Below are positions 19,872 through 24,465 of a DNA stretch of 64,000 nt, piece after piece. Numbering within the stretch: position 1 is the stretch's first letter; the number at the start of each line of letters is the position of its first letter. Under the pieces are notes generated by a model. It did not search any database, was not told the origin of the DNA, and worked only from the letters and a program-made list of their open reading frames with translations. The position numbers were made by a program, and so were the translations under genes. Source of the stretch: Methylocystis sp. (lineage in GTDB: Bacteria > Pseudomonadota > Alphaproteobacteria > Rhizobiales > Beijerinckiaceae); NCBI GenBank assembly GCA_024506175.1, contig JAMBEQ010000192.1, positions 1 to 64,000 on the forward strand. Reading direction: 5' to 3'.

Positions 19872-20297
19872 TCAAGCGTTCGACCGTTGGTTATCGATGT
19901 CGCGTAACCGCGCGCGGATGGTTCTCCAATTGGGCGGCGGCAGCGCGCATTCTTTGCAACGGCGCGCGATCTCCTGAACAAGCGCGCTGAACCGGGGACG
20001 CTCGGGCGCAGCGATGAAGCGGCCCAATGCTTCCTCGATGATCCGTTCGCGCTTGGGATCGAGGCCACGGGTCCCCTTCGGCCTTCCGACCGATCGAGAA
20101 GATGAGGTGATGGCGCCACAACTGCGAAACGATCTTACCATTCGATAAGCAGTCGCGCGTGAGACGCCTAGGCCCTGTTTAAGCTCATCGATCAGCGTCT
20201 TCGTCGGGGCGCCCTGCGCGGCCGCCAATAGGCGACGCATTGCGTCTTCCCGCTTGCTTAGCAGATCGCCGCCTTTGTGCTCCTCTCTATTATCCAT
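19872..20297 (-). pseudogene. Truncated TniA/Mu-like transposase N-terminal fragment
   Basis: HTH (LKQGLGVSRATAYRMVRSFR) + GRPKGTRGLDPKRERIIEEALGRFIAAPERPRFSALVQEIARRCKECALPPPNWRTIRARLRDID, then early stop before any catalytic DDE core. Confidence 0.65.
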
Positions 20298-20703
20298 GAC
20301 ACCGTCTTTATTTTTGTTCTTCTTAATAGTGGCCGGGATGTTCTCGGGCAACCAAGATGCGCTTTGGCGCTCCACACCTAGCGCCTCGCCGCCAGCTTGG
20401 CGATCGCCGACATCACGACACGCCTGTTTTTTCTCACAAATACAACGGTGGGGGAACTTTTGATTTTTTGCCCAGAATGGGCCGACGCTGTGACTTTGTC
20501 TCACTCCACGCACGAGGGTCACGAGCACACTCACCTAGATGTTTCAATAAGTTCGAGGCCAAAAAACGCGCGTCGAAAGTTGAAAAAAACGCATTTTGTG
20601 CAGTGAGACAATTCAATACATTTACTGCTTCAAAGTGTCGCATAGGACTCATCCCCCCGTCGAAATCTGCCCCCCAGTGGACCGATTGGCGACAGGCGGG
20701 CGG

Positions 20704-20733
20704 AAAAACGCCCCGGCTCTGGGAGCCGGGGCG
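20704..20733 (-). terminator. Rho-independent terminator for the 20765-20878 micro-ORF
   Basis: Minus strand CGCCCCGGCT-cccag-AGCCGGGGCG-TTTTT; perfect 10-bp stem. Confidence 0.9.
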
Positions 20734-20764
20734 CGAGCAGAAGCAGGCGCTATGAGCCGATGGC

Positions 20765-20878
20765 TCAAAGGTTAAGCGTGCGATTCACTGTCGGTATAAA
20801 GACAGCAAACAGGAAAATGATGAAACCGATCCAGAAACCGACCCACCCTAGTTCGTTCATGGAATGAAACGTCTTCAT
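20765..20878 (-). CDS. 37-aa single-TM micropeptide, divergent from pmoCAB
   Basis: MKTFHSMNELGWVGFWIGFIIFLFAVFIPTVNRTLNL*; SD gggagggcgcc before ATG; strong terminator 31 nt after stop; below ORF-track cutoff. Confidence 0.65.
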   Translation of the reverse strand: MKTFHSMNELGWVGFWIGFIIFLFAVFIPTVNRTLNL

Positions 20879-21139
20879 TGCTTGGCGCCCTCCCTTTATC
20901 AAGGCGGATGATATACTACACACCGCATAATCAACAGCACGATGGCCAAATCAACTCGCCACGAGTGCGGCAGAAGGTCGCTATGAATCGCGTTATCACA
21001 ATAAAGTGCACTGCATACAATTGTATACCAGCATCAACTCCGTCTCATATTAAATGCATTGTCTCAGTTTAAAATACATACAAATCACCAATTCAATACA
21101 ATGCGCGAAATTGCCGCAGTTAAGCTACGCATGACGCGA

Positions 21140-21168
21140 TTGACGTAACTATTGATTCCCGTGATAGC
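21140..21168 (+). promoter_or_regulatory. Possible sigma70-like promoter for pmoCAB
   Basis: TTGACG followed after about 16-17 nt by a weak GATAGC-type -10. Confidence 0.25.
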
Positions 21169-21343
21169 CTAGTCCTCGGTCAGGAATGCTTCTATACCGA
21201 GCACACAATCTCGGACCGATGAGAGCCTATGCCTGATACACAAGCTGGGAGCGTAATCTGTAGGCGTTCGACTGAATACAAGCGGTTGGCGCTGATCAGA
21301 TAGACAATCCTGGCGTCAAGACAGGAAATACTGGAGGAGAGGA

Positions 21344-22117
21344 ATGTCTCTGACGACAGAAAAAGCAGGGGTTTCGGCGAAAGAGTCCGCAGGCTCGATC
21401 GTCAACTACCGCCCTGCTTATCTCGCCATGGCGGCGCTAGGAACATTTTACGTCGGAATACGCATCTATGAGCAGTATTTCGGATGGAAGGCAGGGCTTG
21501 ATTCTTTTGCCCCTGAATTCCAGACCTATTGGCTCAACATCATGTGGACCGAGCTGCCGCTCGAATTCCTCGCTTTCTGCGCGATCGGCGGCTATCTCTG
21601 GAAGACGCGCGACCGCAACATCGACGCTGTCACGCCGCGCGAGGAAATGCGCCGCCTGATCACCTTGATCGGCTGGCTCCTCGTCTACGCCTTCACGGTC
21701 TATTGGGGCGCGAGCTACTTCACCGAGCAGGACGGCACCTGGCATCAGACCGTCATTCGCGACACGGACTTCACGCCGTCGCACATCCTGGAGTTCTATC
21801 TCAGCTACCCGATCTACATCATCGCGGGCTGGGGGGCCTTCATGTATGGCCGCACGCGCATTCCGCAATTCGCGAACCGCATATCGCTGGCGTTCCTCAT
21901 GTTCTTCGCCGGCCCCTTCATGATCTTCCCGAACGTTGGCCTGAATGAATGGGGCCACACCTTCTGGTTCATGGAAGAGCTGTTCACGGCGCCGCTTCAT
22001 TGGGGCTTCGTGTTCTTCGGCTGGTTCGGCCTCGCAATGTTCGGCACCGTGCTGCAGATCCTCGGCCGCGTGATCGAGCTCAGCAAAGAGTTCGAAAAGG
22101 ACGTGCTCGCGATCTGA
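21344..22117 (+). CDS. pmoC: Particulate methane monooxygenase subunit C
   Basis: SD ggaggag; EQDGTWHQTVIRDTDFTPSHILEFYLSYPIYI with CuC ligands Asp (21731), His (21743), His (21782) at correct D-x3-H-x12-H spacing. Confidence 0.97.
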   Translation: MSLTTEKAGVSAKESAGSIVNYRPAYLAMAALGTFYVGIRIYEQYFGWKAGLDSFAPEFQTYWLNIMWTELPLEFLAFCAIGGYLWKTRDRNIDAVTPREEMRRLITLIGWLLVYAFTVYWGASYFTEQDGTWHQTVIRDTDFTPSHILEFYLSYPIYIIAGWGAFMYGRTRIPQFANRISLAFLMFFAGPFMIFPNVGLNEWGHTFWFMEELFTAPLHWGFVFFGWFGLAMFGTVLQILGRVIELSKEFEKDVLAI

Positions 22118-22338: not shown

Positions 22339-23109
22339 ATGTCCTTATCGAATGAAACGGCGCCGGCGGCAGGCCGGGCCTGGGCATCGAAGGAAGAATT
22401 CATCGGGTGCGTCAAGCTGACCGACTGGATCCTCCTTCTCATCCTTTTCCTGGTGCTGCTCGGCTCATTCCACATTCACTACATGCTGCTTGCCGGCGAC
22501 TGGGACTTCTGGATCGACTTCAAGGATCGCCGCATGTGGCCGACCGTGGCGCCGATCGTCGCCATGTGCTTCGCCGCCGCCGCGCAGTCCTTCTTCTGGC
22601 AGAAGTTCCGCCTGCCCTTCGGCGCGACGGTCGCCTGCTTCGCGCTGCTCGTCGGCGAATGGATCAACCGCTACGACAACTTCTGGGGTTGGACCTTCTT
22701 CCCGATCAACCTGGTCTTCCCGTCTGCGCTGATCCCGATGGGCTTCTGGCTCGATGTGGTTCTTCTGCTCTCGGGAAGCTGGATCGTCACGGCGGTGCTC
22801 GGCGGAATGGGCTGGGGCCTGCTGTTCTATCCCAGCAACTGGCCCGTGCTGGCGCAGTTCCACCAGGCCACTGAGGTCGACGGCGTCCTGCTGACGCTCG
22901 CGGATCTCATCGGCTTCAACTACGTCCGCACCGGCACGCCCGAATATATCCGCATGATCGAGCGCGGCACGCTGCGCACCTTCGGCAAGGACGTTGTTCC
23001 GGTCGCGGCCTTCTTCTCGGGCTTCGTCTCCATGCTCGTCTACTTCCTCTGGTGGAAGGTCGGCGGCTGGTTCTCGACCGTGAAATATCTCGAAAACGAC
23101 GACGTCTAA
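22339..23109 (+). CDS. pmoA: Particulate methane monooxygenase subunit A
   Basis: [75 protein letters not shown]. Confidence 0.98.
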   Translation: [256 protein letters not shown]

Positions 23110-23127
23110 TCCGAACGATTGAACAAT

Positions 23128-23149
23128 GCCGGGGCGTTCAGGCCCCGGC
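23128..23149 (+). promoter_or_regulatory. Stem-loop in the pmoA-pmoB spacer
   Basis: GCCGGGGC-gttcag-GCCCCGGC, perfect 8-bp stem. Confidence 0.7.
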
Positions 23150-23172
23150 GTAGAAGACGACAAGGGAGTCGA

Positions 23173-24465
23173 ATGAAAATGACACAATCATTCTTCCAGA
23201 AGCTGGCGAGAGCAGCGTCGGGCCGAGCAGGACGCCTGCTCTCCGTTGGCGCGGCCGCAGTCGTCGCCGCCACGACGTTTGCCGCCACGCCGGCCGCCGC
23301 GCATGGCGAGCGCTCGCAGCAGGCGTTCCTGCGCATGCGCACGCTCAATTGGTACGACGTGAAGTGGTCGAAGACGACGCTGAACGTCAATGAAGAGATG
23401 GAGCTCACCGGCAAGGTTCACGTCTTCTCGGGCTGGCCGCAAGCGGTTGCAAAGCCGGAGGAAGCCTTCCTGAACGTCGGCGAACCCGGTCCGGTTCTGA
23501 TCCGTAAGAGCGCTTTCGTCGGTGACTCGCCGGTGCCGCGCACCTTCTCTTTGGATATCGGCCACGACTACGACTACAAGATCGTGCTGAAGGCGCGCCG
23601 CCCAGGCCGCTACCACGTCCACGTCCAGATCAACGTCAAGGACGGCGGTCCGATCGTCGGTCCGGGGCAATGGGTCGAGATCAAGGGCGACATGAAGGAT
23701 TTCACCAATCCTGTCACGCTGCTCGACGGCTCGACGATCGATCTGGAAAGCTACGGCATCAACTGGACCTATGGCTACCATTTCCTCTGGATGGCGGCGG
23801 CTCTTGTCTGGATCCTTTACTGGTTCCTGCAGAAGGGCATCATCGTCCGCGGATGGCAGGTCGCCGCCGGCAAGAAGCACGAGATGATCTCGGCGGGCGA
23901 CAAGCGCTTCGGCGGTATCTGGCTCGCCAGCTCGATGCTTGCTCTGCTGTTCTTCTATGCGAACGCCAATCGTGAATTCCCGCGCACCCTGCCGATGCAG
24001 GCTGGCTTGCTGACCGGCATTTCCTTCATCGACAACGGCAAGCAGACGGTCACGGCGAGCTTCGGCGGCGGCTCCTACAAGGTGCCGGGTCGCGAGTTGA
24101 GCGTTAACCTTCGCATCACGAACAATGGCCAGGAGCCCCTGCGCGTGGGCGAATTCACGACGGCCGGCCTGCGCTTCCTCAACCCCGACGTCTTCACCTC
24201 GCGGCCCGACTTCCCGGATTATCTCCTGGCGGATCGCGGTCTCTCGGTGAACGATCCGACGCCGATCGCGCCGGGCGAGACCAGGAATCTCGTCATCACG
24301 GTGCAGGATGCGCGCTTCGACGTCGAGCGTCTGTCCGACCTCGCCTACGACACCGACAGCCAGTTCGGCGGCCTGCTCTTCCTCTTCAGCCCGTCGGGCA
24401 AGCGGGAACAGGTGGAGATCGGCGGCCCGGTCATCCCGAAATTCCAGCTCGGCGCTACGCTCTGA
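23173..24465 (+). CDS. pmoB: Particulate methane monooxygenase subunit B
   Basis: Signal peptide; AAAHGERSQQAFLRMRTLNWYD and RPGRYHVHVQINVKDGGPIVGPGQW; CuB ligand His44/His148/His150 with the 104-residue spacing of H33/H137/H139 in M. capsulatus. Confidence 0.97.
   Translation: MKMTQSFFQKLARAASGRAGRLLSVGAAAVVAATTFAATPAAAHGERSQQAFLRMRTLNWYDVKWSKTTLNVNEEMELTGKVHVFSGWPQAVAKPEEAFLNVGEPGPVLIRKSAFVGDSPVPRTFSLDIGHDYDYKIVLKARRPGRYHVHVQINVKDGGPIVGPGQWVEIKGDMKDFTNPVTLLDGSTIDLESYGINWTYGYHFLWMAAALVWILYWFLQKGIIVRGWQVAAGKKHEMISAGDKRFGGIWLASSMLALLFFYANANREFPRTLPMQAGLLTGISFIDNGKQTVTASFGGGSYKVPGRELSVNLRITNNGQEPLRVGEFTTAGLRFLNPDVFTSRPDFPDYLLADRGLSVNDPTPIAPGETRNLVITVQDARFDVERLSDLAYDTDSQFGGLLFLFSPSGKREQVEIGGPVIPKFQLGATL

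Follow-up and report, generated by a model that had tools for sequence, protein, structure and literature searches.

A conserved single-transmembrane peptide gene divergent from pmoCAB2 in Methylocystis and Methylosinus, a candidate partner of pMMO2

Organisation of the locus

The window, a stretch of 64,000 nucleotides from a Methylocystis sp. contig, was analyzed around a minus-strand ORF of 37 codons (20878-20765, ATG...TGA), the product of which is MKTFHSMNELGWVGFWIGFIIFLFAVFIPTVNRTLNL. The start of pmoC lies 465 bp from this gene on the opposite strand and is followed by pmoA and pmoB. The features of the locus were as follows.

19872..20297, minus strand: HTH gene standing alone, of TniA/Mu-type transposase origin (outside the core claim)
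20703..20734, minus strand: intrinsic terminator-like hairpin and T-run after the peptide gene (from the sequence; a hairpin follows every homologue)
20765..20878, stop codon included, minus strand: gene of the 37-aa single-TM peptide (ORF, homologues, selection and AlphaFold2)
20888..20894, minus strand: Shine-Dalgarno sequence GGGAGGG, 9 nt ahead of the peptide ATG (from the sequence)
20977..20982, plus strand: upstream, peptide-proximal copy of the GTCGCA/T motif, degenerate in the window (putative operator)
21113..21118, plus strand: second motif copy, GCCGCA, degenerate, just upstream of the pmoC promoter (putative operator)
21140..21168, plus strand: candidate sigma-70-type pmoC2 promoter TTGACG-N17-TGATAG (pattern conservation)
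21344..22117, plus strand: pmoC2 (NCBIfam TIGR03078 / NF041641)
22339..23109, plus strand: pmoA2 (NCBIfam TIGR03080 / NF041557)
23173..24465, plus strand: presumably pmoB2, by position and family features (ORF 23119-24465; start at an internal Met inferred)

The Shine-Dalgarno sequence and the GC-rich hairpin with T-run that a preliminary description had placed around the ORF were confirmed in the sequence. The hairpin (20734-20708, GCGCCCCGGCTC-CCA-GAGCCGGGGCGT, -25.9 kcal/mol) begins 30 nt past the stop codon, and its GC-rich stem of 11 pairs, with one additional G-T pair, runs into the T-run.

The 20879-21343 region between the peptide gene and pmoC was compared with the corresponding regions of other loci. 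By the strict pattern TTGAC[AG]-N17-TGATA, 10 of the 18 representative intergenic regions had the putative pmoC2 promoter in the same position; a generic scan did not pick up the candidate at 21140-21168. The motif TGTCGCA was present in 13 of the 18 regions, against 0.9 expected, and TGTCGCA-like copies occurred twice in most loci, one lying about 100-130 bp upstream of the start codon of the peptide gene and the other some 25 bp ahead of the -35 element of pmoC. These repeats are candidate operators of pmoCAB2, and as a motif observation the repetition fits joint control of the peptide gene and the operon. Conserved AT-rich TCTCA/TTATAATACAT blocks were also seen between the copies in the pmoCAB2 intergenic regions.

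The neighbouring HTH gene corresponds to the HTH domain found at the N-terminus of TniA/Mu-type transposases, here standing alone, and a full-length relative of 538 aa carries rve-like and Mu-transpos_C domains. Relatives were noted at L156:558-2174, L159 and L161, and in two genomes the HTH gene is followed by a degenerate-looking, rve-like second ORF. In many genomes the gene has stayed close to pmoCAB2, and in others (G088 and G160) it is located elsewhere; it is possibly a domesticated DNA-binding regulator.

Conservation of the peptide and selection on its sequence

Six-frame searches were carried out on 149 genomes of the family, of which 7 carried homologues, and then on the 39 genomes of Methylocystis and the 10 of the second genus, Methylosinus. 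The peptide was present in 16 of the 39 Methylocystis genomes, at 17 loci, and in 9 of the 10 Methylosinus genomes, for a total of 25 genomes and 26 loci. When 397 genomes of the family were searched with a profile, exactly the same 25 came back, and in 399 genomes of the phylum the only match was the window's own genome.

The homologues were 35-37 aa long and shared an identical start position, with MKT-, MA- or ML- ahead of an invariant His, and nearly all ended in FIPTVNRALNL or a close variant. Every homologue was preceded by a purine-rich Shine-Dalgarno sequence and followed by a strong hairpin, the sequence of which differed among clades. The T-run after the hairpin was missing in some clades, so the term terminator is firm for the window copy and not for all copies. 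In the alignment the third codon position varied in 30 of 32 codons and the second in 12. For nine sister pairs, with about 60 synonymous against 29 nonsynonymous differences, the pooled pN/pS was 0.14 (binomial p ~1e-19). With a conserved ORF, purifying selection and translation signals all found, the ORF is a real protein-coding gene under strong purifying selection. The preliminary description had proposed a genuine gene for a small membrane peptide, followed by a terminator of its own, and had suggested as a check that the peptide be sought ahead of pmoC in other type II methanotrophs, where conservation with a bias toward synonymous changes would support it. The proposal was borne out: the peptide gene lies at that position in 25 genomes, and its substitutions show the synonymous bias.

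A single continuous helix spanning residues 2-35 was predicted by AlphaFold2 (pLDDT 90.5), and most copies had a hydropathy of 2.5-2.8, both of which agree with the transmembrane helix expected of an accessory subunit. The residues H5, E9, W12, V13, W16, F24, F27, I28, P29, V31, N32, L35 and N36 were invariant, which suggests a conserved contact. The conserved residues leaned toward one face of the helix, with a periodicity that was not significant (p ~0.09-0.13).

The peptide family is absent from Pfam above the cut-off, from NCBIfam and from the PDB as searched. In Pfam only sub-threshold transmembrane similarity was seen, and OppC_N (PF12911) was discarded at 18.7 bits, below the gathering cut-off of 23.9. 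No NCBIfam family matched the peptide. In the PDB the single-sequence query gave chance matches only (E of 0.7 or worse) and the peptide profile matched no chain, the structures of pMMO1 homologues being free of any sequence of this family. The peptide was not found in a plasmid search, and its locus had no match in Rfam.

Association of the peptide with pmoCAB2

The pmoA2 of the window was 82-97% identical to the pmoA beside other peptide copies and 68-71% identical to pmoA1-type genes; for the peptide-linked pmoA genes taken together, identity to the pmoA1-type genes of the same genera was 67-71%, and pmoC2 was 80-95% identical among the peptide-carrying loci. In the literature, pmoCAB2 encodes the high-affinity isozyme (PMC7285482; PMC9600857) and occurs in some Methylocystis and most Methylosinus (PMC7285482). 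Here, too, a pmoA distinct from pmoA1 occurred as a single copy in a subset of Methylocystis and in most Methylosinus. The window operon was therefore assigned to pmoCAB2, a type that it matches by pmoA divergence and published distribution. Methylocystis sp. B8, for which pMMO2 has been reported (PMC7716213), was among the peptide loci (L059). The divergent arrangement given in the preliminary description thus stood, with the correction that its operon belongs to the pmoCAB2 type and not to the conventional pmoCAB1, at whose loci the peptide was always missing. The group is reported to have pmoCAB1 as a core operon, yet no pmoA1 was found in the window's whole genome; this gap probably reflects collapsed repeats missing from the 266-contig assembly.

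The peptide was present in all 25 genomes with a pmoA2-type gene and in none of the 24 genomes of the same genera without one, counts that are not independent trials because the genomes are related. In Methylocystis the 16 genomes with the peptide were the same 16 that carried a pmoA2-type gene, and the two genes shared the same 17 loci; one genome (G173) held two copies of both. In Methylosinus the sole genome without the peptide was the sole genome without pmoA2. Among 80 named pmoC loci, the peptide was found at all 15 of the pmoC2 type and at none of the other 65, which included pmoCAB1, lone pmoC, Methylocapsa, USC-alpha and gammaproteobacterial loci. An unguided search of the 1.6 kb ahead of pmoC for Shine-Dalgarno-led transmembrane mini-ORFs yielded this peptide alone at pmoCAB2 loci and no common mini-ORF among pmoCAB1 and other pmoC loci. 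Both the gene linkage and the co-occurrence expected of an accessory subunit of a copper membrane monooxygenase were thus found. A type I toxin-like role, which the short, hydrophobic, single-helix form of the peptide might bring to mind, was rejected on this strict linkage to a metabolic operon; with one copy per locus and no mobile distribution, we give it next to no credence.

The orientation and spacing relative to pmoC were constant, always divergent and about 450-610 bp. The far-side neighbour varied, being the HTH gene at many loci, and an outer-membrane-like protein (G088), an aldehyde dehydrogenase (G149) and a hydrolase-like protein (G078) elsewhere, the last three named by reading the sequences and not by family search. 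Since the far-side gene changes while the peptide stays, the linkage is specific to pmoC2 and not a matter of general neighbourhood. The same change of neighbours led us to reject a leader peptide, attenuator or dual-function small RNA controlling the downstream gene. The hairpin past the stop codon and the same-strand HTH gene farther downstream in many loci would suit such a role, but selection acts on the amino acids and Rfam gave no match, and we hold it to be very improbable.

Distances between peptides and between PmoC2 proteins were correlated (Mantel r 0.73, 0 of 5000 permutations), as would be expected of jointly inherited genes. The peptide diverged faster than PmoC2, by up to 49% against 12%.

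A pmoCAB-like operon with a PmoC about 70% identical to that of the window was also noted in Skermanella aerolata (L078); Skermanella is not known as a methanotrophic genus. An unrelated transmembrane ORF of 37 aa (MGAILELVDMMKSPLGIVAALIAASAVYLFVRWVLKD) lies upstream of that operon on the opposite strand.

Possible functions of the peptide

Because the peptide was found in every examined Methylocystis and Methylosinus genome with pMMO2 and in none without, it is a strong candidate, on genomic grounds, for an overlooked partner of pMMO2. The idea of an accessory or regulatory peptide in the preliminary description fits this strict co-occurrence with pmoCAB2. We moderately favour a single-transmembrane accessory peptide dedicated to pMMO2, either a subunit or a stabiliser or assembly peptide, and co-regulated with pmoCAB2. 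Such a peptide would have a short transcription unit to itself, divergent from pmoCAB2, and its expression would be co-regulated with the operon through the common intergenic region. It would insert into the same membrane as pMMO2 and, in the role of a small accessory subunit, might pack against PmoC2 or PmoA2, so that the enzyme would be stabilised or assembled, with a possible effect on activity. Against the favoured subunit reading, adjacent genes may co-occur by linkage alone, the peptide evolves faster than PmoC2, perhaps beyond what one would expect of a subunit embedded tightly in the complex, the published structures of pMMO1 homologues contain no member of this family, and the one-face clustering of conserved residues was not significant.

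pMMO2 enables methane oxidation at low, near-atmospheric concentrations in type II methanotrophs and differs kinetically from pMMO1. As a companion of pMMO2 and never of pMMO1, the peptide, which is small and can be deleted, is a candidate cause of part of this difference, and it may be a missing component for expression or structural work on pMMO2. A more specific role, as an isozyme-specific fourth subunit that raises the apparent methane affinity through packing on PmoC2 or PmoA2 or through substrate access, appears rather unlikely; if true, pMMO1 and pMMO2 would differ in subunit composition and not in sequence alone.

Several known systems resemble the peptide in part. CydX, CcoM and KdpF, of about 30-40 aa with one transmembrane helix, stabilise large membrane complexes (respiratory enzymes and pumps) and are similar to the peptide in size and single helix. 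They are encoded in the same direction within or near their operons, whereas the peptide gene is divergent, and no sequence relation to them was found. PmoD is a larger, copper-binding protein, whereas the window copy of the peptide has no Cys and one His. It is an accessory protein of pMMO/AMO systems (PMC6189053). AmoX, AmoY and AmoZ are accessory transmembrane subunits of archaeal ammonia monooxygenase (PMC10030591). Like the peptide, they are small helical transmembrane proteins outside the A, B and C set whose genes are linked to a copper membrane monooxygenase operon, but they are archaeal and larger (AmoY 9.6 and AmoZ 12.8 kDa) and their physical association has been shown (PMC10030591). 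They are, by analogy, the closest functional precedent; the likeness is one of function, and sequences were compared through the PDB and the family libraries.

The favoured reading was also set against the structural record of pMMO1. Strain Rockwell is taken here to be Methylocystis sp. ATCC 49242. The Rockwell pMMO crystal structure 4PHZ holds an unidentified extra helix beside PmoABC (PMC8098663), which is likewise an extra transmembrane helix in a pMMO from a type II methanotroph but belongs to pMMO1. Methylocystis sp. ATCC 49242 and Ms. trichosporium OB3b are without pmoCAB2 (PMC7285482). Because the peptide never occurred outside pmoCAB2 genomes, every searched genome without pmoA2 lacking it, its identity with the 4PHZ helix was rejected, indirectly, on distribution.

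A pMMO2-specific regulator or biogenesis factor that acts transiently and not stoichiometrically, such as a helper in membrane targeting, with lipids or in copper loading, or a protein that modulates proteolysis, is the next, less probable reading. Strict pairing with pmoCAB2 is compatible with this role, as are a predicted transcription unit that lies outside pmoCAB and ends in a terminator-like hairpin, the invariant His5 and Glu9 close to one membrane face, and the faster evolution of the peptide than of PmoC2. The present data fit a subunit equally, however, and the window copy, with no Cys and a single His, has no copper-handling motif. Another target under low-methane conditions, for example intracytoplasmic membrane organisation or an electron-donor protein, would suit a co-regulated membrane peptide that has its own transcription unit and only the intergenic region in common with pmoCAB2. 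We consider this improbable, as no genome among 397 of the family and 399 of the phylum had the peptide without pmoCAB2; on the same observation, the need for it vanishes with pMMO2.

Outside the two genera, a pmoC 67% identical to that of the window was observed on a short contig labelled as an Elusimicrobia MAG (L083), which is probably misbinned.
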